NCBI GenBank assembly: GCA_017307375.1
Contig: JAFKFH010000017.1
Span: 1 to 64,000 of the forward strand
Length of the DNA stretch: 64,000 nucleotides
Reading direction: 5' to 3'
Origin: Alphaproteobacteria bacterium
GTDB lineage: Bacteria > Pseudomonadota > Alphaproteobacteria > Ferrovibrionales > Ferrovibrionaceae
The notes below the pieces were generated by a model. That model was not told the origin of the DNA and searched no databases. It saw nothing but the letters and a program-made list of their open reading frames with translations. Within the stretch, counting starts at the first letter, position 1; every line of letters starts with the position of its first letter. A program made the translations under genes and the position numbers. Positions 233-14,298 of this stretch are shown here, piece by piece.

Positions 233-248
233 TATCAATAAGTTGACG
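233..248. promoter_or_regulatory. Putative MarR operator, copy 1
   Basis: TATCAATAAGTTGACG shares the inverted half-sites TCAA-N4-TTGA with two better palindromes at 6750 and 7308, which flank the marR-type gene at 6794. This copy is 55 bases before the binding-protein start and just after the upstream terminator, where a promoter must lie. Its centre (TAAG) differs from CATA in the other two copies. Assignment to that regulator is inferred. Confidence 0.5.
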
Positions 249-303
249 TGTTTCCGATTGCGTGGGACGATCCCCCGACGTTCGCGCCAATGGGAGGAAA
301 CCT

Positions 304-1494
304 ATGAAGAAACTGGCAGCGCCGGTTCTCGCATCCGTTCTGCTCGTCGCCGGGCCGGCCATGGCCCAGGTCAAGATCGGCATCATGAACGACCAGTCGG
401 GCCCCTATTCCAGCATCACCGGCGTCGGCTCGGTCGCCGCCGCCAGGCTCGCCATCGAGGAAGCCGGCGGCAGCGTGCTGGGCAAGCCGATCGAAATCGT
501 CTCGGCCGACCACCAGAACAAGCCCGATGTCGGGGCCGGCATCGCCCGCCGCTGGTTCGATACCGAAGGCGTCGGCGCGATCTTCGACATCTACAACTCC
601 GGCGTCTCGCTCGCCGTCCAGAAGCTGGCCGAGGAAAAGGACAAGATCCTCGTGGTGTCGATGGCCTCCAGCCGCGACATCTCCGGCAAGTTCTGTTCGC
701 CCAACGGCATGCAGTGGGCCAATGACGGCTACGAGGTCGCCAACCTGACGATCAAGGGTGCCTCGGCCCCCGACGCCAATTCCTGGTATTTCATCACCGT
801 CGACTATGCGGCCGGCCATTCGATCGAGAAGGATTCGACCAAGCTGGTCGAAGCCGCGGGCGGCAAGGTCCTCGGCTCGGTGCGCTTTCCGCTCGGCTCG
901 AACGACTTCTCGTCGTTCCTGTTGCAGGCCCAGGGCTCGAAGGCCAGGTCGATCGGCCTGATCGGCGGCGGCGCCGACCTGATCAACGCCACCAAGCAGG
1001 CCGGCGAATTCCAGATCCGCGAGGCCGGCCAGCGCTTCGTGCCGTTCTCGATGACGACCGAGGACGTCTATGCCATGGGCAACAAGACCACCCAGGGCAT
1101 GCCGCTGGTGCAGAGCTTCTACTGGAACGAAAGCGATGCCTCGCGCACCTGGACCGAGCGCTTCAAGAAGGCGGCCAAGCGCATGCCGACCGATCCGCAG
1201 GCCAATATCTACTCGGCGGTCGGCCACTACCTGAAGGCGGTCAAGGCGGCGGGCACCACCGACACCAAGGCGGTCCTGGCCAAGATGAAGGAAATGCCGG
1301 TCGAGGACTTCTTCACCGCCGGCGCGAAAATCCGCGCCGACGGCCGCCTGATGCGCGACGTCTATTTCGCCGAAGCCAAGGCGCCGGGCGACATGCAGGG
1401 GCCGGACGACCTGCTCAAGCTGGTCAAGAAATATACCGGCCAGGAAGCTTTCATCCCGGCCGATCAGAGCGAATGCCCGTTGCTGAAGAAGTGA
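304..1494 (+). CDS. HAAT-family ABC transporter substrate-binding protein
   Basis: This is a 396-residue periplasmic binding protein of the LivK/Peripla_BP_6 family. The ATG at 304 is chosen over an in-frame upstream start because GGGAGGAAAC precedes it and it begins a clear signal peptide, MKKLAAPVLASVLLVAGPAMA. The mature protein opens with VKIGIMNDQSGPYSSITG, the usual first strand and loop of the family. It resembles the protein encoded at 12271-13488, including NDQSxxYS and the C-terminal CPLLKK/CPLVKS ends. Ligands in this branch are often aromatic or short carboxylic acids. The neighbouring CoA ligases favour a carboxylic acid ligand, but the ligand is not shown by sequence. A bidirectional terminator follows. 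Confidence 0.88.
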   Translation: MKKLAAPVLASVLLVAGPAMAQVKIGIMNDQSGPYSSITGVGSVAAARLAIEEAGGSVLGKPIEIVSADHQNKPDVGAGIARRWFDTEGVGAIFDIYNSGVSLAVQKLAEEKDKILVVSMASSRDISGKFCSPNGMQWANDGYEVANLTIKGASAPDANSWYFITVDYAAGHSIEKDSTKLVEAAGGKVLGSVRFPLGSNDFSSFLLQAQGSKARSIGLIGGGADLINATKQAGEFQIREAGQRFVPFSMTTEDVYAMGNKTTQGMPLVQSFYWNESDASRTWTERFKKAAKRMPTDPQANIYSAVGHYLKAVKAAGTTDTKAVLAKMKEMPVEDFFTAGAKIRADGRLMRDVYFAEAKAPGDMQGPDDLLKLVKKYTGQEAFIPADQSECPLLKK

Positions 1495-1503
1495 TCGGCT
1501 GAC

Positions 1504-1551
1504 AAAAAAAAGGGGCCGGGTTCGCGATGGCGGACCCGGCCCCTTCGTTTT
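1504..1551. terminator. Bidirectional rho-independent terminator
   Basis: A 12-bp stem (AAGGGGCCGGGT, 1510-1521, with ACCCGGCCCCTT, 1534-1545) has a run of A on its left (1504-1511) and CGTTTT on its right. It can therefore end both the forward binding-protein transcript and the reverse CoA-ligase transcript, whose genes converge here. Confidence 0.85.
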
Positions 1552-1572
1552 GAAGGGGATCAAAAAATCATT

Positions 1573-1600
1573 CGTCGCCCCGGCGAAGGCCGGGATGACG
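1573..1600. repeat. REP-like palindromic intergenic element
   Basis: The segment reads CGTCGCCCCGGCGAAGGCC then GGGATGACG. It is an imperfect palindrome (CCCGGC/GCCGGG around GAAG) of the kind scattered between genes in many alphaproteobacteria as CGTCATCCCGGCCTTCGCC. I see one copy in this window. It lies between the bidirectional terminator and the 3' end of the CoA-ligase gene. Confidence 0.55.
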
Positions 1601-1614
1601 ATCGGCGCATCCTC

Positions 1615-3318
1615 TCAGAGCAGCGCCTTCAGCTCTTCCTTCTTCACCTTGCCCGTCGCCGTCATCGGCAGCGCGTCGGCGATGCGGATCTCCGGGACCT
1701 TGTAGACCGCCAGCCGCTCGCGGCAGAAGGCCTTCAGCTCATCGGCCGAGACCCCGCCCTGCACGGTGATGAAGGCCACCGGCACCTGGCCCTTCTCATC
1801 GTCCTCGCGGCCGATGACGCCCGAGCCGGTGACGCCGGGATGCTGGCCCAGCACAGCCTCGATCTCGGCCGGGAAGACGCTCATCCCCTTGACCTTCAGC
1901 ATCTCCTTGCGGCGGCCGAGGAAGTGGATGGTACCGCCCTCGCCGATCATGCCGAGATCACCGGTGCGCAGCCAACCGCCGACGATCGCCTCGGCCGTCG
2001 CCTCCGGCTTGTTCCAGTACCCCTTCAGCAGCGAGGGCGACCGGACGCAGAGTTCGCCCTCGACGCCCAGCGGCATCAGCCTGTCCGAACCGAATTCGAG
2101 GATCTTGAACTGGGTACCCGGCACCGGCAGGCCGCAGAACACCTGTGTCGCCTTCAGATCGGCGTCGCCATCCTGATGGCCGCGGGTGAAGCTGTCGAAC
2201 GAATGCGTCTCGGTCATGCCCCAGGCGGCCTCGCGCAGGGTCGCCCCGGTCAGCTTGCGCCAGCCGTCGCGGAAGGTCGTGTTCAGCTTCTTGACGAAGG
2301 ATGCGACCATCACCTCGCGCAGCGAATGCAGGTCGAACCGGCCGACGCGGGCGTCTTCCATGACCTGGACGGCATTGTCGACCAGCATCAGCGCCACGGT
2401 GACCTTGTGCCGCTCGACCGCCGCGGCCCAGGCCAGCGGGTCCCAGCGGGCCAGCAGCACGCAGGTCGCCCCGGTGACGATCGGCAGCAGGATGCCGCCA
2501 TCCTGGCCCGCAACCCAGAAGATCGGCCAGAAATTGAGAACGACGTCGTCGGCCCCGATATCGGCGGAGATCGACGAAATCGTCGCCCCGGTATAGAGCA
2601 TGTTGCCCTGGCTGTGGATGCAGCCCTTGGGCATGCCGGTGGTACCGCCGGTGTAGTTCAGCGCGGCCATGTCGTCGAGGCCGACCGCAACCGCCGGGAC
2701 CGGCCCGGTCTCGGCCGCCAGCGCCTGCATCAGGTCGGCGACGCCGGGCGCCGTCGCGCGCGGCGCCGTCAACCCGGCCGGCAACGGCCCGACCGGGTCG
2801 TCAGGCAAGGCGTCGAGGAACGAGGTCGAGAAGACGTGGACCAGCCGGGTCTGCGGGCGGGCCGCCGCGGTGACCGCCAGCAACTGGTCGTGGGCGACCA
2901 TCACCGTCGCGCCGGTATCGTTCAGCTCGTAGACGAGTTCCCCCTCGGTGAACATCGGATTGACCGGCACGTGGACACAGCCGGCCTTCAGAATGCCAAA
3001 GAACGCCACGTAGAATTGGGGGCAGTTGGGCAGGAACACCGCAACCCGGTCGCCCTTGACCAGTCCGAGCCGGTGAAGCAGCGCGGCGAAACGATCGGAC
3101 AGGCGGTCGAGCTCGCTCCAGCTCAGCGCCCGGCCGTAGAACAGCACCGCGGCCTTGTCCGGCGTGCGCCGGGCCCAGTCCCGCAGGTAATCGGTCAGCG
3201 GCTTGCGGCCGAGGGGATAGCGCTGCTCGCTCGCCACGCCGGCGGGCCAGCCTGCCTTGACCAGGCCGGCAACATGGCCGAGATAGCTTTCCTCGTTCGC
3301 CAGATAGGCGTCGGTCAT
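1615..3318 (-). CDS. AMP-dependent acyl-CoA synthetase/ligase
   Basis: This 567-residue protein is an ANL-superfamily acyl-CoA ligase that activates a carboxylic acid with ATP to the acyl-AMP and then the CoA thioester. Visible motifs are the phosphate loop YTGGTTGMPKG (about residues 222-232), GYWNKPEAT, RTGDLG, the hinge GRRKEMLKVKG, and a C-terminal TATGKVKKEEL carrying the catalytic lysine. The length is normal for FadD-like enzymes. It starts 21 bases after the fused acyl-CoA carboxylase gene on the same strand, so ligation and carboxylation are probably co-expressed. The chain length of the substrate cannot be read from the sequence. Confidence 0.9.
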   Translation of the reverse strand: MTDAYLANEESYLGHVAGLVKAGWPAGVASEQRYPLGRKPLTDYLRDWARRTPDKAAVLFYGRALSWSELDRLSDRFAALLHRLGLVKGDRVAVFLPNCPQFYVAFFGILKAGCVHVPVNPMFTEGELVYELNDTGATVMVAHDQLLAVTAAARPQTRLVHVFSTSFLDALPDDPVGPLPAGLTAPRATAPGVADLMQALAAETGPVPAVAVGLDDMAALNYTGGTTGMPKGCIHSQGNMLYTGATISSISADIGADDVVLNFWPIFWVAGQDGGILLPIVTGATCVLLARWDPLAWAAAVERHKVTVALMLVDNAVQVMEDARVGRFDLHSLREVMVASFVKKLNTTFRDGWRKLTGATLREAAWGMTETHSFDSFTRGHQDGDADLKATQVFCGLPVPGTQFKILEFGSDRLMPLGVEGELCVRSPSLLKGYWNKPEATAEAIVGGWLRTGDLGMIGEGGTIHFLGRRKEMLKVKGMSVFPAEIEAVLGQHPGVTGSGVIGREDDEKGQVPVAFITVQGGVSADELKAFCRERLAVYKVPEIRIADALPMTATGKVKKEELKALL

Positions 3319-3339
3319 TCTTTCCTCCCTAGATTGGCT

Positions 3340-6300
3340 TCACCAGACGTCGACGGCCTTGCGCGGCCGGTCGCGTTGGGCCGGCACGGCACGCAGCCCG
3401 GCCAGGATGAGATCCCGGGTTTCCGCCGGGTCGATGACGTCGTCGATCTCGAGGAAGCTGGCGACACTCAGCGCCTTGTTCTCCTCGTAGGCCTGCGCGA
3501 CCTTGGCGTCGAACCACGCCTTGCGCGCCGCCGGATCCTCGATCGCCGCCATTTCCTTGCGGTAGGCGAGCTTGACCCCGCCTTCGAGACCCATGGCGCC
3601 GAACTCGCCGGTCGGCCAGGCCAGCGTCATGAACGATGCATGGGTCGACCCTGCGGCCATCGCCAGCGCGCCGAGACCATAGCCCTTGCGCAACACGATG
3701 GTGAAATAGGGCACGGTCGCGGCCGAGGCCGCGACGAACATGCGGCTGACATGCCGGACCTGGGCGGTCTTCTCGACCTCGGGCCCCACCATCATGCCGG
3801 GCGTGTCGCAAAGCGAGACGATGGGCAGGCCGAAGGCATCGCACAGCCGGATGAAGCGCGCCGCCTTGTCGGCACCGTCGGCGTCGATCGCCCCGCCCAG
3901 GTGGCGCGAATTGTTGGCGATCAGCCCGACCGGCCGGCCGGCGATGCGGACCAGCGCGGTGATCATGCCGACCCCGAAGGCTTCGCGCAGCTCCAGCACC
4001 GAGCCGGTATCGGCCAGCCCCGCGATCACCTCGCGGACGTCGTAGGCCCGCAGGCGATTCTCCGGAACGACATGGCGCAGGATGCGCTGGTCGGCACATT
4101 GCCAGTCGTCGACACGCCCCTGGAAATAGCCGAGATACTTCCTGGCCGCGGCGACGCCCTCGGCCTCGTCGGCGACCAGAACGTCGACCACGCCGTTCGG
4201 CACCTGGACATCCATCGGCCCGATGTCCTCGGGCCGGAAGACGCCGAGGCCACCGCCCTCGATCATCGCCGGGCCACCCATGCCGATATTGGTGTTGCGG
4301 GCAGCGATGACCACGTCGCAACTGCCGAGCAGCGCGGCATTGCCGGCAAAGCAGCGGCCGGACACGAGCCCGACGGTCGGGACCAGCCCGGCCAGCGCGC
4401 CCATCCGGCCGAAGGTGGTGGTGTCGAGGCCGGCGGGCGTCGGCCATTCGTCACCAGGCCGTCCGCCGCCACCTTCCGCGAAGACCACAAGCGGCATCCG
4501 CCATTTGTCGGCCATCGCCAGCAACCGGTCGGTCTTGCGATGATTGATCACCCCCTGGGTGCCGGCGAACACCGTGTAGTCGTAGGCCGCCACCGCACAG
4601 CGCGCCTGCTCGTCGGCGAACAGGTCACCGTTGACGCGGCCAAGCCCGGTGATCATGCCGTCGGCCGGGCTCATCGCCCTGAGATCGTCGAGGCTGCGGC
4701 GACGGCGCTGGGCGGCGAGCGCCAGTCCGCCGAACTCGACGAAGCTGCCGGCGTCGCACAGATCGGCGATGTTCTCGCGCGCCGTTCGCTGCCCGGTCTT
4801 GCGTCGGCGCGCCACCGCCTCGGGCCGGCGATCGTCGAGCAGCGCGGCGCGCCGGTCCAGCACCTCGGCCAGGTCGGGGCGGATCAGGTCGAGGTCGATT
4901 GCCGCCGCGGCCGCGGCCTCGGCCTCGCCCGCCGCGTCGGGGTCGAGCCAGATCAGCAGGCTGCCTTCGAGCACGGTGTCCCCGACTGCGGCATCGATGC
5001 GCACGACCCGGCCGCCGGCGGGTGCCGGCACCGGATGCTCCATCTTCATCGCTTCCAGCACCATCAGTTGCTGGCCGCGCCGCACCATGTCGCCCACAGC
5101 GATATCGACGGCGATGACGGTGCCCTGCAGCGGCGCGGGGATGCCGTCCGCCCCTTCTGGCGCCGGCCCCGCGGCAGCCCGCAGGGTCGAGGCGCCCCCG
5201 AACACGCCGAGCGGATCGTCGGTCCGGCCGCGGGCTTCGCGAAAGAACAAGGCCGGCGCGGGCTCGGCCGCCACGAGATCGGCAATGCGCTCGTCGAGAA
5301 ATCGGGTGTGGATGGCATTGCGGCGGAAATCGTCATCCGCCAACAGGGCCTGCAGCAGCGGGATGTTGGTGGCGAGGCCCTCGATGCGGAATTCGCGCAG
5401 GGCACGCTCGGTCCGTCTGATGGCATCGAGATAGCTGCCGTCGGGCGCATGGACGATCAGCTTGGCCAGCAGCGAATCGTAGCGCGGGCTGGTGGCATAG
5501 CCGGTATAGCCGAAGCTGTCGACGCGGACCCCCGGCCCGGAGGGCTTGTCGAAGGCGGCGAGCGTGCCGCCCGACGGTCGCGTGCTGCCGTCCGGTCCGA
5601 CCGTCTCCATGTTGATGCGCAGCTGGATCGCGTGGCCGCGGGGGGTTGGCGCAGCTCGATCAAGGCCCAGTTCCGCCAGACGCGCCCCGGCGGCGATCCT
5701 CAGCTGGGCCTGGACGAGATCGACGCCCATCACCGCCTCGGTCACCGTATGCTCGACCTGCAGCCGCGGATTGACCTCGATGAAGGCGAAGTCGCCGCCA
5801 TCCTGCGTGACCAGGAACTCGAAGGTGCCCAGCCCCTCATACTCGACCTTGCGCGCCATCTGCAGCGCCGCCTCCGACAACTGCCGGCGCATCGCCGCCG
5901 GCAGGGTCGGGCTGGGCGCGATCTCGACCAGTTTCTGGTTGCGTCGCTGGATCGTGCATTCGCGCTCGCCAAGGGTTACGACATCGCGCCCGTCGCCCAC
6001 CACCTGGATCTCGATATGGCGGGCCGCAGGCATGAAGCGCTCGACATAAAGCGCGCCGTTGCCGAAGGCGCCCTGCGCCTCCGAGCGGCAGCGTTCGAAC
6101 GCTGCCGGAATCTCCTCCGCGGCCCGGACCACCCGCATGCCGCGCCCCCCGCCGCCGGCGATCGCCTTGATCATCATCGCTTGGCCCGGCCGCAGCCCGG
6201 CAAAGAATGCCTGTGCCTCGGCCAGCGTCGTCGCAGCGGCGGTGCCTGCCATCAGCGGCACGCCGCAGCGCTCGGCCAGCGCGCGGGCCTGCGCCTTGTC

Positions 6301-6648
6301 CCCGAACAGGTGCAGCAGCTCGGGTCGCGGGCCGACGAAGGTCATGCCGGCGGCACGCACCGCGGCGGCGAATGCCGCGCTTTCCGACAGGAAGCCATAA
6401 CCCGGATGCACCGCGTCGCAGCCGGCCTCGCGCGCCGCCGCCACGAGACCATCGACATCGAGGTACGCCGCGGGCCCTTCCTGCGCCAACGCGACCGCCG
6501 CATCAGCCGTTCGCACATGCAGCGAACGCGCCTCGTCGCGGGCATGGACGGCAACGGTCGGGATGCCGAGATCGGCCGCGGCCCGGGCGATCCGGATGGC
6601 GATCTCGCCGCGATTGGCAATCAGCAGTTTCGAGAAAATCATTGGCAA
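3340..6648 (-). CDS. Fused biotin-dependent acyl-CoA carboxylase (BC-BCCP-CT in one chain)
   Basis: This 1102-residue protein joins three parts that are often separate subunits. An N-terminal biotin carboxylase (about 1-450; LLIANRGEIAIR, IAGGGGRGMR, EVNPRLQVEHTVTE) is followed by a biotinyl domain with the motif EAMKMEHP, whose modified lysine is K535. A carboxyltransferase fills about 590-1102 (GGRPGDEWP, CDTPGMMVGPEVE, AAGSTHASFMTLAWPTGEFGA split over two halves). It should add CO2 from bicarbonate to an acyl- or enoyl-CoA. Acetyl-, propionyl-, 3-methylcrotonyl- or geranyl-CoA-type substrates are all possible. It heads an operon with the ligase at 1615 and is divergent from a marR-type gene with a strong palindrome between them. 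Confidence 0.9.
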   Translation of the reverse strand: MPMIFSKLLIANRGEIAIRIARAAADLGIPTVAVHARDEARSLHVRTADAAVALAQEGPAAYLDVDGLVAAAREAGCDAVHPGYGFLSESAAFAAAVRAAGMTFVGPRPELLHLFGDKAQARALAERCGVPLMAGTAAATTLAEAQAFFAGLRPGQAMMIKAIAGGGGRGMRVVRAAEEIPAAFERCRSEAQGAFGNGALYVERFMPAARHIEIQVVGDGRDVVTLGERECTIQRRNQKLVEIAPSPTLPAAMRRQLSEAALQMARKVEYEGLGTFEFLVTQDGGDFAFIEVNPRLQVEHTVTEAVMGVDLVQAQLRIAAGARLAELGLDRAAPTPRGHAIQLRINMETVGPDGSTRPSGGTLAAFDKPSGPGVRVDSFGYTGYATSPRYDSLLAKLIVHAPDGSYLDAIRRTERALREFRIEGLATNIPLLQALLADDDFRRNAIHTRFLDERIADLVAAEPAPALFFREARGRTDDPLGVFGGASTLRAAAGPAPEGADGIPAPLQGTVIAVDIAVGDMVRRGQQLMVLEAMKMEHPVPAPAGGRVVRIDAAVGDTVLEGSLLIWLDPDAAGEAEAAAAAAIDLDLIRPDLAEVLDRRAALLDDRRPEAVARRRKTGQRTARENIADLCDAGSFVEFGGLALAAQRRRRSLDDLRAMSPADGMITGLGRVNGDLFADEQARCAVAAYDYTVFAGTQGVINHRKTDRLLAMADKWRMPLVVFAEGGGGRPGDEWPTPAGLDTTTFGRMGALAGLVPTVGLVSGRCFAGNAALLGSCDVVIAARNTNIGMGGPAMIEGGGLGVFRPEDIGPMDVQVPNGVVDVLVADEAEGVAAARKYLGYFQGRVDDWQCADQRILRHVVPENRLRAYDVREVIAGLADTGSVLELREAFGVGMITALVRIAGRPVGLIANNSRHLGGAIDADGADKAARFIRLCDAFGLPIVSLCDTPGMMVGPEVEKTAQVRHVSRMFVAASAATVPYFTIVLRKGYGLGALAMAAGSTHASFMTLAWPTGEFGAMGLEGGVKLAYRKEMAAIEDPAARKAWFDAKVAQAYEENKALSVASFLEIDDVIDPAETRDLILAGLRAVPAQRDRPRKAVDVW

Positions 6649-6749
6649 GCCCGCATCCTATGGGATGATCGCCCGGCCGCGCCACGGTCGCCGAACCGGA
6701 TCGACGTTTGGTTCCTGGTTTCCCTTCGACCGTAGAAGCAGCGAATATT

Positions 6750-6769
6750 CATGTCAACATATTGACATG
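6750..6769. promoter_or_regulatory. Putative MarR operator, copy 2 (best palindrome)
   Basis: CATGTCAA-CATA-TTGACATG is a perfect 8-bp inverted repeat with a 4-base centre. It lies between the divergent carboxylase (start 6648) and marR-type gene (start 6794), 24 bases before the latter. Divergent placement with an autoregulatory palindrome is the standard MarR arrangement. Confidence 0.65.
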
Positions 6770-6793
6770 ATATAGAGAGGGCGACAGGGACTG

Positions 6794-7309
6794 ATGACGC
6801 GCAGCAAGACTGCCAAGGCGGTATCGCCACCGGCGCTGACGCCGGACGACGAGACGAACAACCGGCTGTTTTTCCGCCTGTTCCAGGCCTCCAACATCTA
6901 CGAGCGGCAAGCCCAGCGCGAGTTGAACTTCTCGGCAATCCAGGGGGCCGTGCTCGGCGCGCTGTCGCGCGAGCCCGTCGACGGCATCGGATTCTCCGAT
7001 CTGGTCGAGTACCTGGTGGTCAGCCGCCAGAACCTCGACGGCGTGCTGAAGCGGCTGGAAAAGCTCGATTATGTCGAGCGCGTCGAAAACCCGGCGAATC
7101 GTCGGGTCAAGATGGTCCGGCTGACCAAGGCCGGCGCCCGCGCCTGGGAAGCCTTGTTCGAGGCCTCGCTACGGTTCTATCGCCAGGGCACCGAGGGCGT
7201 GTCGCTGGAGGAAAAGGCAGCCTTCGTCGAGACGCTCGGGCGTATCGGGCGCGCCATGCGCGGCATCAGGCTTGAGCCCGCCCCGAAGCGGAAGCCATCT
7301 TCCAAATAA
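6794..7309 (+). CDS. MarR-family transcriptional regulator
   Basis: This 171-residue protein has the winged-helix MarR fold: a dimerisation helix, then FSAIQGAVLGALSRE, FSDLVEYLVVSRQNLDGVLKRLEKL as recognition helix, and the wing YVERVENPANRRVKMVRLTKAG. It is divergent from the acyl-CoA carboxylase and followed 51 bases later by a CoA ligase. Palindromes with the same core lie on both sides of it and at 233-248, so it probably represses these units and is released by a small ligand such as an acyl-CoA or the free acid. The ligand is inferred from the neighbours only. Confidence 0.88.
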   Translation: MTRSKTAKAVSPPALTPDDETNNRLFFRLFQASNIYERQAQRELNFSAIQGAVLGALSREPVDGIGFSDLVEYLVVSRQNLDGVLKRLEKLDYVERVENPANRRVKMVRLTKAGARAWEALFEASLRFYRQGTEGVSLEEKAAFVETLGRIGRAMRGIRLEPAPKRKPSSK

Positions 7310-7323
7310 TCAACATATTGATA
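7308..7323. promoter_or_regulatory. Putative MarR operator, copy 3
   Basis: AATCAACATATTGATA has the same 12-base core (TCAACATATTGA) as the divergent site at 6750-6769. It overlaps the last codon of the marR-type gene and sits 37 bases before the next CoA-ligase start. An operator here implies a separate regulated promoter for that ligase. Confidence 0.6.
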
Positions 7324-7360
7324 TAATTCGGGGAGAAGCGATAAAGGCGAGGAGGAAGCG

Positions 7361-8974
7361 ATGCCCGGAATCAAGGCGGCCGTGCCGGACCGCGAGACCT
7401 GCGTCCTGCGCTATGTGCTGGAGCGGCGGGCGGCGTCGCACCCCGATCGGGACTTCATCCGCCAGGGCGACGGTTCGGCGATCACCTATGGCGCATTCCG
7501 GCAGCGGGTCGAACGCACCGCCGCGGGCCTGGCCGCGCTCGGCGTCGCCCAGGGCGACACCGTCACCGTCTGGCTGCCGAACGGCGTCGAGATGATCCGG
7601 GTGTGGTTTGCGATCAACTGGCTGGGCGCGACCTACGTGCCGGTCAACACGGCCTATCGCGGCAACCTGCTGGCGCATGTCGTCGCCAATGCCGGCTCGA
7701 AGCTGATCGTCGCCTCGGCCGACCTCGTCGGCCGGCTGGCCGATATCGACCGCGCCGAATTGCGGGCCTGCGTCGTCGTCGGGGGAACGGCCGACGCCGT
7801 GCCCGGCCTCGCCATGCACGAAATCGGTGCGCTCGACGGCGACCCGGCCACCCTGCCCGCCCTGACCCGGCCGATCGAGCCGTGGGACGTGCAGTCGATC
7901 ATCTATACCTCGGGCACCACCGGCCGTTCCAAGGGCGTCATCTCCTCCTACGCCCATCTGCATGACATGAGCGGCCCGAATTCGTTCTACATGCTCGACG
8001 AAACCGACTGCTTCCTGCTCTACGGCCCGCTGTTCCATGTCGGCGGCACCCTGCCCGTCGTCGCCTCGCTGAATCGCGGGGGCGCGGTGGGTGTCGCCGG
8101 CGAATTCTCGACCGAGGGCTTCTGGCCGGCGGTACGGGCGACGCGGGCCACGTTCCTGATCCTGCTCGGGGTGATGACATCCTTCATCGCCAAGCGGCCG
8201 CCCGGCCCGGACGACCGGGACCATACCCTCAGGAAGGTCATGATGATCCCGCTGGCCGACGACTGGCGCGCCTTCGCCGACCGCTTCGGCATGACGGTCT
8301 GGACGCTGTTCAACATGACCGAGATCAACGTGCCGATCGTGTCGGAACCCAATCCGGCCGCGCCCGGCACCTGCGGCAAGGCGCGGGCGGGCCTGGAAAT
8401 CCGCATCGTCGACGACAACGATTGCGAAGTCGCCGATGGCACGGTGGGCGAGCTGATCCTGCGCACCGATGCCCCGTGGGCGCTGAATTCCGGCTATTTC
8501 CGCGATGCCGAGGCGACGGCCCGGGCCTGGCGTAACGGCTGGTTCCATACCGGCGACGCCTTCCGCCGCGATGCCCAGGGCAACTTCTTCTTCGTCGACC
8601 GCATGAAGGATGCGATCCGCCGGCGGGGCGAGAACATCTCGTCGTTCGAGGTCGAGGTCGAGATCCTGGCCCATCCCCAGGTCCGCGAATGCGCCGTCGT
8701 CGCGGTACCGAACGAAACGTCGGAGGATGACGTGCTGGCAATCGTCGCGCCGATACCGGGCGCCACGATCGATCCCGTCGACCTGCTCGATTTCCTGCGC
8801 CCGCGCCTGGCCCATTTCATGCTGCCGCGCTACATCCGCGTGCTCGATAACCTGCCGCGGACCCCGACCCAGAAGGTCGAGAAGCACGTGCTGCGATCGG
8901 CCGGCATCAGCGACGACACCTGGGACCGCGAGCGCGCCGGCATCAAGGTCGCCCGCGAAAAGATCAGGGGGTAG
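7361..8974 (+). CDS. ATP-dependent acyl-CoA ligase (CaiC/FadD-like)
   Basis: This 537-residue ANL-superfamily ligase has the phosphate loop YTSGTTGRSKG at about residues 182-192, the adenine-site motif TEIN, the hinge region DRMKDAIRRRGENISS and the C-terminal catalytic lysine in TPTQKVEKH. RRGENISSFEVE is typical of the crotonobetaine/carnitine and short-chain branch. GAGGAGGAAG lies a few bases before the ATG. A copy of the MarR palindrome precedes it, so it is likely co-regulated with the fused carboxylase although transcribed the other way. The exact acid is unknown. Confidence 0.88.
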   Translation: MPGIKAAVPDRETCVLRYVLERRAASHPDRDFIRQGDGSAITYGAFRQRVERTAAGLAALGVAQGDTVTVWLPNGVEMIRVWFAINWLGATYVPVNTAYRGNLLAHVVANAGSKLIVASADLVGRLADIDRAELRACVVVGGTADAVPGLAMHEIGALDGDPATLPALTRPIEPWDVQSIIYTSGTTGRSKGVISSYAHLHDMSGPNSFYMLDETDCFLLYGPLFHVGGTLPVVASLNRGGAVGVAGEFSTEGFWPAVRATRATFLILLGVMTSFIAKRPPGPDDRDHTLRKVMMIPLADDWRAFADRFGMTVWTLFNMTEINVPIVSEPNPAAPGTCGKARAGLEIRIVDDNDCEVADGTVGELILRTDAPWALNSGYFRDAEATARAWRNGWFHTGDAFRRDAQGNFFFVDRMKDAIRRRGENISSFEVEVEILAHPQVRECAVVAVPNETSEDDVLAIVAPIPGATIDPVDLLDFLRPRLAHFMLPRYIRVLDNLPRTPTQKVEKHVLRSAGISDDTWDRERAGIKVAREKIRG

Positions 8975-12270: not shown

Positions 12271-13488
12271 TCAGGACTTGACCAGCGGGCAGCCGCCTTC
12301 GGACAGCGGCCGGATGATCTCGTCGGCCTTGGCGACGCCCTTGACCTTGAGCAGGTCCCACTCCGCCTTGACCTCGCCCGGCTTCTTGACCTCGAGCAGC
12401 AGCATGTCGCGCATCAGGCGGCCATCCTCGCGCAGCTTGGCATTCTTGGTCATGAAGTCGTTGACCGGCATTTCCTTCATCTTCTTCATGACGGTCACGC
12501 CGTCGTCGCTGTTGGCCGCGCTCACGGCCTTCAGGTAGTGGTTGACCGCCGAATAGACCGCCGCCTGGGCATGGGTCGGCGGGCGCTTCATCTTCTCGGC
12601 GTAACGCTTGGAGAAGGCGCGGCTTTCATCGTCGGCGTCCCAGTAGTAGCCGCCCAGGAACTGCGTGCCCTGGGCCAGCTCCACGCCGATCGCCTTGACG
12701 TTGACGATGGTGAAGATCGGCGCCGCGATCGACACGCCCTTCGACACCAGGCCGAATTCGCCGGCCTGCTTCAGGGCATTCGAGGTGTCCGAGCCCGCGT
12801 TGAGCAGCGCCAGCACCTGGGCGTTGGCGCCGGTCGACTGCAGCAGGAAGGACGAGAAATCGGCCAGCGACAGCGGGTGGCGCACCGAGCCGACGACCTG
12901 GCCGCCCTGGGCCTGCAGCGCGTTGGTCATGTCGGTCTGCATCGCATGGCCGAAGGCATAGTCGGCGACGACGAGGAACCAGCGCTTGTGCTGGTCATCG
13001 TAGATCGCCCGGGCGAGGCCCTTGGCCAGCGAATAGCTGTCATAGAGCCACAGCGCGCCGGTCGGCGAGCATTCCTTGCCGTAGAGGTCGACATGGGCCG
13101 AACCGACATGGACCGCGATCTTGCCGGCATTGCGGGTCAGCTGCTGCACGGCCAGCGAGACCGACGAGTTCGCCATGTCGAAGAAGGCGTCCGCCTTGTC
13201 GACGTCGATCGCCTTCTTGGCCTGGGTGGCGCCGATATCGGCCTTGTTCTGATGGTCGATCGTGATGATCTCGACCGGCATGCCGGCAGCCTTGCCGCCA
13301 TTGTCGGCGATCGCCAGTTCGGCCGACACGACCGAGCCCTTGCCCGACGTGTCGGAATAGGCCGAGGACTGGTCGTTCATCACCACGATGCGGACGACAT
13401 TGTCCGAGACCTGCGCCTGCGCCGGCATGGCCAGCGGGGCAAAGGCAATAGAAGCGGCCAGCACGCCGCGCGTCAGGGTGTTTTTCAC
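12271..13488 (-). CDS. HAAT-family ABC transporter substrate-binding protein
   Basis: This is a 405-residue periplasmic LivK-type binding protein. The start is set at GTG 13488 because GGAGGAA ends five bases before it; the ATG at 13503 would place the ribosome site inside the gene. The signal peptide VKNTLTRGVLAASIAFAPLAMPAQA is followed by VVRIVVMNDQSSAYSDTSG. It resembles the protein at 304-1494 along its length. It is the first gene of a reverse operon with a ligase, SDR and hydratase and is divergent from a tetR-type gene. No permease genes accompany it, so it probably shares a liv-type permease encoded elsewhere. Confidence 0.86.
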   Translation of the reverse strand: MKNTLTRGVLAASIAFAPLAMPAQAQVSDNVVRIVVMNDQSSAYSDTSGKGSVVSAELAIADNGGKAAGMPVEIITIDHQNKADIGATQAKKAIDVDKADAFFDMANSSVSLAVQQLTRNAGKIAVHVGSAHVDLYGKECSPTGALWLYDSYSLAKGLARAIYDDQHKRWFLVVADYAFGHAMQTDMTNALQAQGGQVVGSVRHPLSLADFSSFLLQSTGANAQVLALLNAGSDTSNALKQAGEFGLVSKGVSIAAPIFTIVNVKAIGVELAQGTQFLGGYYWDADDESRAFSKRYAEKMKRPPTHAQAAVYSAVNHYLKAVSAANSDDGVTVMKKMKEMPVNDFMTKNAKLREDGRLMRDMLLLEVKKPGEVKAEWDLLKVKGVAKADEIIRPLSEGGCPLVKS

Positions 13489-13561
13489 CTGTTCCTCCCA
13501 CATGCATCCGGCCGCTGCCGGTGTGGTCGGTATGATCGCCAGGGCGTGAATTTAGTCAATC

Positions 13562-13573
13562 AATTAATTAATG
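13562..13573. promoter_or_regulatory. AT-rich palindrome, candidate TetR operator
   Basis: ATTAATTAAT (13563-13572) is a perfect palindrome inside TCAATCAATTAATTAATGC. It stands out in a window that is otherwise very GC-rich and lies between the divergent binding-protein and tetR-type genes. Assignment to that regulator is positional only; no wider inverted repeat is visible. Confidence 0.35.
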
Positions 13574-13656
13574 CTAAGGTAGCGAAGCGTCGCACCAACG
13601 TTGCTTGACCCGGACGGCCGGGCTATGGCTCCTTTTCCGGGGGAATGAAGGACCTG

Positions 13657-14298
13657 ATGACCAGTTCTGCCACTGCGCCGACCCGTCGCCGCACCAGCCG
13701 CAGCGATGCCGCCGCCCGCCTGCTGGCGGCCGCATCGAGCTTGATGATCGAGCGCGGCTCGACCGAGATATCGCTGGGCGACATCTCCGAGCGCTCGGGC
13801 GTCAACTCGGCCCTGGTCAAATATCATTTCGGCAACAAGACCGGCCTTCTGGTCGCGCTGCTGGAACGCGACGCGCAATCGGCCATGGAACAGCTGAATG
13901 CCTTGCTGCGGGCGGACCTGTCGCCGACCGCCAAGCTGAAGCTGCATATCGCCGGCGTGGTCAATGCCTATTACCGCACCCCCTACCTGAACCGCCTGAT
14001 CCACGACCTGCTGCACCAGTCGAGCGACGAGGTGGCCCGGCAGGTCGCCGACTTCTTCGTCGGCCCGGTCGTCGAGTTCGAGCGGCAGTTGCTGGCCGAA
14101 GGCATCAGGCGGGGCGAATTTCGCGACGTCGACCCGATGATCTTCTATTTCACGCTGTTCGGCGCGATCGACCACATGTTCTATGCGCGTCACACGCTGC
14201 TCTACGGCTTCGGCGTTTCCGAGGTCACCGAGGACATGCGCCGCAAACTGATCGATCTTGTCACGGAGATGGTGCTCGGCGCGATCAAGCCCGGCTGA
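13657..14298 (+). CDS. TetR/AcrR-family transcriptional regulator
   Basis: This 213-residue regulator has the N-terminal DNA-binding domain RSDAAARLLAAASSLMIERG, then ISLGDISERSGVNSALVKYHF and GNKTGLLVALLERD, the signature of TetR helix-turn-helix proteins. ATG 13657 is preferred to ATG 13645 because AAGGA stands four bases before it, while the earlier codon directly abuts its purine run; both are possible. It is divergent from the operon starting at 13488 and probably controls it. The C-terminal ligand domain is not specific enough to name a ligand. Confidence 0.85.
   Translation: MTSSATAPTRRRTSRSDAAARLLAAASSLMIERGSTEISLGDISERSGVNSALVKYHFGNKTGLLVALLERDAQSAMEQLNALLRADLSPTAKLKLHIAGVVNAYYRTPYLNRLIHDLLHQSSDEVARQVADFFVGPVVEFERQLLAEGIRRGEFRDVDPMIFYFTLFGAIDHMFYARHTLLYGFGVSEVTEDMRRKLIDLVTEMVLGAIKPG

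Follow-up and report, generated by a model that had tools for sequence, protein, structure and literature searches.

A probable BadR-type repressor with recurrent TCAA-N4-TTGA operators in a predicted uptake, CoA-ligation and acyl-CoA carboxylation module of an alphaproteobacterium

BadR regulators of the MarR family have been described in Aromatoleum sp. CIB, Rhodopseudomonas palustris and Cupriavidus necator. In the Aromatoleum study (PMC9795900), the BadR operator consensus was given as CAAN4TTG, gel shifts with mutated half-sites showed bases 1 and 2 of the 4-bp half-site to be essential, a spacer of 2 or 4 was found to work whereas one of 0 or 6 failed, and repression was relieved when BadR's own coenzyme A (CoA) ligase and cyclohexanecarboxylate were both present. 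The same study gives CAATacATTG as the operator used by R. palustris BadR, and PMC7057948 describes repressor behaviour with cyclohexanecarboxylate as the inducer for the C. necator system. Here, a 64,000-nucleotide stretch (the window) from an alphaproteobacterium of the Ferrovibrionaceae (GCA_017307375.1, contig JAFKFH010000017.1, positions 1 to 64,000), which is the start of contig C35 in a source genome (G000) of 7.54 Mb, was analysed for three palindromic sites around a MarR-family gene starting at position 6794. The genes next to these sites are predicted to encode a substrate-binding protein (SBP1), two CoA ligases (LIG1 and LIG2) and a single-chain carboxylase (LCC). It is highly probable that the 6794 protein is a BadR-type repressor which, by analogy with BadR, would be relieved by acyl-CoA from its ligases and would control the uptake, activation and carboxylation of an acid. 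The original prediction, which had placed uptake, both CoA ligases and the carboxylase in a small regulon under this MarR protein, was supported by the recurrence of module and operator elsewhere and by the published CAAN4TTG.

The motif TCAAN4TTGA was found exactly three times in the window (operators 1 to 3, Table 1), where it had been predicted, followed by no further copy in the 64 kb, and 100 shuffled sequences gave a mean of 0.19 copies and a maximum of 2. All three dyads were intergenic, lying 5′ of SBP1, in the gap between the divergent LCC and marR genes, and between the marR stop codon and LIG2, and their scores were not reached by the shuffled gap sequences (5000 shuffles per gap). 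The arms were 4+4 at site 235, 9+9 at site 6754 and 5+5 at site 7310, and the 8+8 palindrome proposed for the middle site has to be corrected to a perfect 9+9. The operators at 6754 and 7310 were found to be the same 12-mer, for which the predicted exact repetition holds, whereas the operator at 235 is one base off when read on the opposite strand; the proposed pattern TNTCAA-N4-TTGANA was found to fit strictly at 6754 and at neither of the other two sites. The published BadR core CAAN4TTG was present in all three sites. Among the open-access papers containing the literal 12-mers, none was about a MarR operator, as judged by title or the start of the abstract.

The 6794 protein scored 36.9 bits with PF12802 against a cut-off of 27, its best structural matches were MarR proteins, and its structure model was found to have the MarR fold with a mean pLDDT of 88.6. 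The MarR assignment of the original prediction was confirmed, its BadR-type nature having been missed. The residues 77-89 (SRQNLDGVLKRLE), covering most of the predicted recognition helix, were identical in 19 of the 97 other distinct rows compared, six of these from full bad-ali sets, and differed at no more than two positions in 90 of the 98 distinct rows, all rows counted. An identical helix was contained in the bad-ali regulator of Azotobacter beijerinckii (L193), a species named as a bad-ali carrier in PMC9795900, at a whole-protein identity of 44%. The like helix and the like dyad argue for binding of these dyads by the 6794 protein. The structural matches contained p-coumaroyl-CoA-bound CouR (6c28, Z 16.0) and its DNA complex (6c2s, Z 15.7) at 20-21% identity. 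CouR is an acyl-CoA-binding member of the MarR family, but the fold alone is in common at this identity, and it was rejected as a special structural relative, many MarR chains tying or matching better.

Table 1. Operators and genes of the predicted regulon in the window
Feature	Position	Strand	Evidence or remark
Operator 1	235-246	no strand	TCAATAAGTTGA; SBP1 start 57 bp away; score reached by 0/5000 shuffles
SBP1, Peripla_BP_6 ABC substrate-binding protein	304..1494	+	Pfam PF13458, 1.9e-93
LIG1, acyl-CoA synthetase	1615..3318	-	PRK06178 model, 839.6 bits, above cut-off of 782
LCC, single-chain biotin carboxylase-BCCP-carboxyltransferase	3340..6642	-	Pfam domains and 4rcn_A match
Operator 2	6749-6770	no strand	9+9 perfect palindrome, centre TCAACATATTGA at 6754-6765; divergent LCC/MarR gap; LCC start 111 bp and MarR start 28 bp away
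BadR-like MarR regulator, 171 aa	6794..7309	+	Pfam MarR_2, 4.1e-9
Predicted recognition helix codons	7025..7063	+	residues 78-90, helix in structure model
Operator 3	7310-7321	no strand	TCAACATATTGA; abuts marR stop codon; TATAAT (7322-7327) directly 3′; LIG2 start 39 bp away
LIG2, AMP-binding acyl-CoA ligase	7361..8974	+	PRK06155-like, 502 bits, below model cut-off of 722

The carboxylase stood in the putatively controlled set as predicted, and its full-length homology, which had been missed, was found with the solved long-chain acyl-CoA carboxylase 4rcn_A (residues 4-1079 of the 1100 aa, 1084 bits). By its BC, BCCP and CT domains, LCC is a full-length homologue of this enzyme. The two share a near end-to-end single-chain match, whereas LCC is placed in a module of uptake and activation; it may act on long-chain acyl-CoA. 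LIG1 and LCC probably form one operon, because LIG1 starts 21 bp behind LCC on the same strand. The solved chain nearest to SBP1 by sequence was 3i09_A.

Sites and positions, regulator family, predicted helix and the finding that both module and dyad recur elsewhere were all read from sequence. An earlier single-protein scan of the named genomes had found no relative of the 6794 protein; an alignment-based query of the named genomes found 506 relatives, the best 80 of which were kept. Three of these best 80 were found to carry the window module, namely L118 (metagenome-assembled genome (MAG) KLAP73), L119 (a Methylocystaceae MAG) and L120 (Vineibacter terrae). Their regulators were 58-60% identical to the window MarR, with one or two residues different in the recognition helix, followed by identities of 67-72% for SBP1, 66-69% for LCC and 70-80% for LIG2. 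LIG1 was 70-71% identical in L119 and L120, whereas the best match in L118 was just 27% and no LIG1 lay near the locus; L118 contained a further LIG2-like gene of 54% identity.

In all, 104 loci were compared, consisting of the window, 12 plasmid loci, 11 loci from further genomes and the 80 named loci, some of them duplicated (for example L107 and L187). Their neighbourhoods were found to contain LCC (at least 60% identity) in 4, badI or aliA/B in 72, badH only in 6, dienoyl-CoA reductase only in 10 and none of these in 12, some of which lie on short contigs. The plasmid relatives reached up to 52% identity to the 6794 protein (34-52% in the 12 of 35 plasmid records examined), and a badI-type protein of at least 60% identity was nearby in 9 of these 12 loci, L097, L100 and L102 being the others. 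The regulators of the window and of L118-L120 formed one clade with a support of 100/100 in a 49-row tree, whose rows were hand-picked and midpoint-rooted without an outgroup, contained long branches and a deviating composition in L119, and did not contain the BadR sequences of R. palustris and Aromatoleum. An earlier tree, of 23 bad-ali rows (every second one) plus other rows, was rejected; its two outgroup rows had a branch length of 10 and were useless as a root. The clade of LCC-associated regulators is firm and its place among the BadR-like proteins is not; the closest relatives outside it lay mostly beside bad-ali genes.

The ligase was also followed on its own. Across 385 genomes of the class, the best non-self match to LIG2 was 60% identical, and none of 29 non-self LIG2 loci (flanks of up to 1.5 kb) contained a MarR gene, while four of them (L218, L219, L234 and L245) contained a carboxylase of 37-51% identity beside the ligase. 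In Tistrella mobilis, LIG2-like (52%), LCC (59%) and SBP (54%) genes were found grouped with a TetR gene, which shows that these enzymes can be combined with a different regulator; no TCAAN4TTGA was found in the 23 kb around this set.

The dyads recurred with the module. L118 was found to contain the full 8/8 core at three places, namely 5′ of SBP1, between LCC and MarR and 5′ of the further LIG2-like gene, followed by a 7/8 core between MarR and LIG2; L119 contained 7/8 cores before SBP1 and in the LCC/MarR gap, and L120 contained a 7/8 core before SBP1 and a 6/8 core in the LCC/MarR gap. Of the eight gaps tested outside the window, seven had scores that were attained in no more than 18 of their 5000 shuffles, and the Fisher test on the tested gaps gave 2.7e-16. 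The extended motif with AT-rich flanks (ATRTCAAYRYRTTGAYAT) was found at 7 places in the genome of L118 (G398) against 0 for the control, all four matches with at most 2 mismatches lying inside the module, and at 7 places in genome G399 against 1 for the control, one of them being the SBP1 site. In the source genome, the extended motif matched 20 places with at most 3 mismatches (control 4) and 6 places with at most 2 mismatches, 3 of which were the window sites. When the flanks were loosened to W and 2 mismatches allowed, the source genome showed no separation (92 against 74 in the control), and this pattern was discarded. Beyond the module, TCAAN4TTGA was found in the gap beside an SBP gene on three rhizobial plasmids, with a product 44-45% identical to SBP1, and directly 5′ of 9 of 103 BadR-like genes against 0 in each of three controls; these 103 genes include those of the window and L118 and exclude L111, which had no covering frame, and sites before other genes of the clusters were left uncounted.

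One further dyad of the source genome, AAGCCAATATATTGACAT at C12:190197-190214 (L203, L214), lies 55 bp 5′ of a likely acyl-CoA dehydrogenase gene and is possibly a fourth member of the regulon. The places C16:401616 and C5:157258 were also examined as candidate members, and neither was assigned. The best match of G399 adjoins a different MarR gene of 35% identity (L215, about 5591-6053), which has ATATAAATAGATTGATAT shortly after its end and lies next to a gene of the short-chain dehydrogenase/reductase type.

A number of results weigh against a regulon under the 6794 protein. The bare TCAAN4TTGA was found at 51 places in the source genome against 15 for the reversed control. Among the 48 places outside the window, 27 were inspected with a rough gene caller of our own, giving 17 inside genes, one of them an exact TCAACATATTGA at C13:164550, and 10 between genes; 16 of the 27 lay in 14 stretches picked by eye, mostly with AT-containing cores, and 21 places were left uninspected. 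Because of these 51 places, many of those inspected being inside genes, the bare 12-mer is no regulon marker; the spread of the motif over the genome, which the original prediction had named as telling against it, thus speaks against the bare 12-mer and not against the extended dyad. No dyad was found between MarR and LIG2 in L119 or L120, and the Fisher test on the related gaps was made without these two gaps lacking a site, with a scoring pattern whose flanks had been fixed after the sites of the window and L118 were known. The LCC/MarR site of L120 was not significant (408 of 5000 shuffles). One half-site was found to have lost its C in the SBP1 sites of L119 and L120 and in the MarR-LIG2 site of L118, and according to PMC9795900 changing that position abolished BadR binding in Aromatoleum. 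The genome of L120 (G400) contained 21 extended-motif matches with at most 3 mismatches against 4 in the control, none of them in the module, and the core CAAN4TTG was contained directly 5′ of just 24 of the 103 BadR-like genes, the four controls giving 1, 2, 9 and 11. A promoter scan gave no sigma-70-like site at any of the three window dyads.

The published BadR regulators and the 6794 protein share the MarR family, the operator core CAAN4TTG, a recognition helix which is identical in some bad-ali regulators, and a position adjoining CoA ligase genes with one site between divergent genes; the window regulator differs in its separate clade and in its neighbours, which encode a binding protein, a carboxylase and a different pair of ligases. 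With the operator class the same and badI, aliA or aliB nearby (by identity) in 72 of the 104 loci, the 6794 protein might be a functional BadR that responds to the usual inducer, in a module that breaks down cyclohexanecarboxylate or a closely related alicyclic acid along a different route. We regard this as improbable. The genes badH, badI, aliA and aliB were not found beside the window regulator (badK had no true reference and so was not searched), and the first 16 kb of the window gave bad-ali matches of just 29-33% and none for AliB. The best score with the badI model in the source genome was 308 bits, for a protein which scored 320 with the naphthoyl-CoA synthase model and had no badH or aliB beside it, against 455 and 491 bits for two bad-cluster proteins (cut-off 467.6). 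The LCC-type regulators stand in a separate clade on a long stem, and Vineibacter terrae (G400) carries, separately from its LCC module, a bad-ali set in which a site precedes badH, with no MarR gene in the 12.5 kb examined. The 6794 protein thus appears to be a BadR by operator, not by job. The Vineibacter genome (loci L210, L211 and L120) was also found to contain a BadR-like gene of 43% identity with two sites beside dienoyl-CoA reductase, in addition to the bad-ali set and the LCC module, which makes it a natural case for operator cross-talk.

The palindromes might instead be by-products of promoter boxes, since -35 boxes of TTGACA facing both ways give TGTCAA-N4-TTGACA; operator 2 lies between divergent genes and was found to contain TTGACA on both strands, and operator 3 abuts TATAAT. 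Sites 1 and 3, however, precede genes in a single orientation, the related loci and the published BadR operator share the spacing of 4, and the window sites were unmatched by shuffles, which leaves this origin very improbable. It is also conceivable, if rather unlikely, that just operators 2 and 3 are used, for marR, LCC and LIG2, and that operator 1, whose arms are the shortest, is weak or unrelated with SBP1 controlled otherwise; a dyad was nevertheless found before SBP1 in all four genomes carrying the module, with cores of 8/8, 8/8, 7/8 and 7/8.

Under the BadR-type repressor favoured here, we infer binding by the 6794 protein, repression, an acyl-CoA inducer and the action of LCC on the CoA ester of the substrate in its catabolism. 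A dimer of the 6794 protein would bind the dyads at 235, 6754 and 7310 and would keep RNA polymerase off SBP1, the LCC-LIG1 operon, marR itself and LIG2; its block of the polymerase at operators 2 and 3 is inferred, because the promoter scan showed no promoter at the dyads. The acid would be taken up and then activated to acyl-CoA by LIG1 or LIG2, the acyl-CoA would bind the repressor and release it from the DNA, and LCC would carboxylate the CoA ester of the substrate during its catabolism. The inducer should be the acyl-CoA formed by LIG1 or LIG2, as expected because of the analogy with BadR.

A further motif, TAGTCAANNNATTAATTA, was observed at 13553-13570, 5′ of a TetR gene at 13645-14298. 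It was found without mismatch exactly three times in the source genome (reversed control 0), in the window, at C28:236393, where it precedes a TetR gene 70.5% identical to the window TetR, and at C5:126713, where it precedes two likely acyl-CoA dehydrogenase genes, and the set looks like a second, separate TetR regulon. Two Peripla_BP_6 proteins lie within 13 kb (304-1494 and 12271-13503); each has a separate ligase nearby, and the neighbouring regulator gene is of the MarR type for the first and of the TetR type for the second.

The BadR operator class itself is already known, and what the comparison of sequences points to is a metabolic context that is new for a BadR-type repressor; a regulon of this type that includes LCC was not seen among the results of the open-access literature searches, subscription papers being mostly outside the search. 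The chances appear about even that a BadR-like branch left ring-acid catabolism, kept the operator and nearly the same helix, and became an acyl-CoA switch for a carboxylation-dependent pathway of uptake, CoA activation and LCC. If so, the shared operator would pose a problem of cross-talk where a bad-ali set, a BadR-type site and another BadR-like gene coexist, as in Vineibacter, where the degeneracy of the module sites would then provide insulation. The regulon would offer a regulatory handle for the single-chain LCC, since the inducer of the repressor would indicate which substrate the module as a whole serves, and would provide a small testable case of how regulators of one family keep their operator while changing their genes and presumably their ligand.

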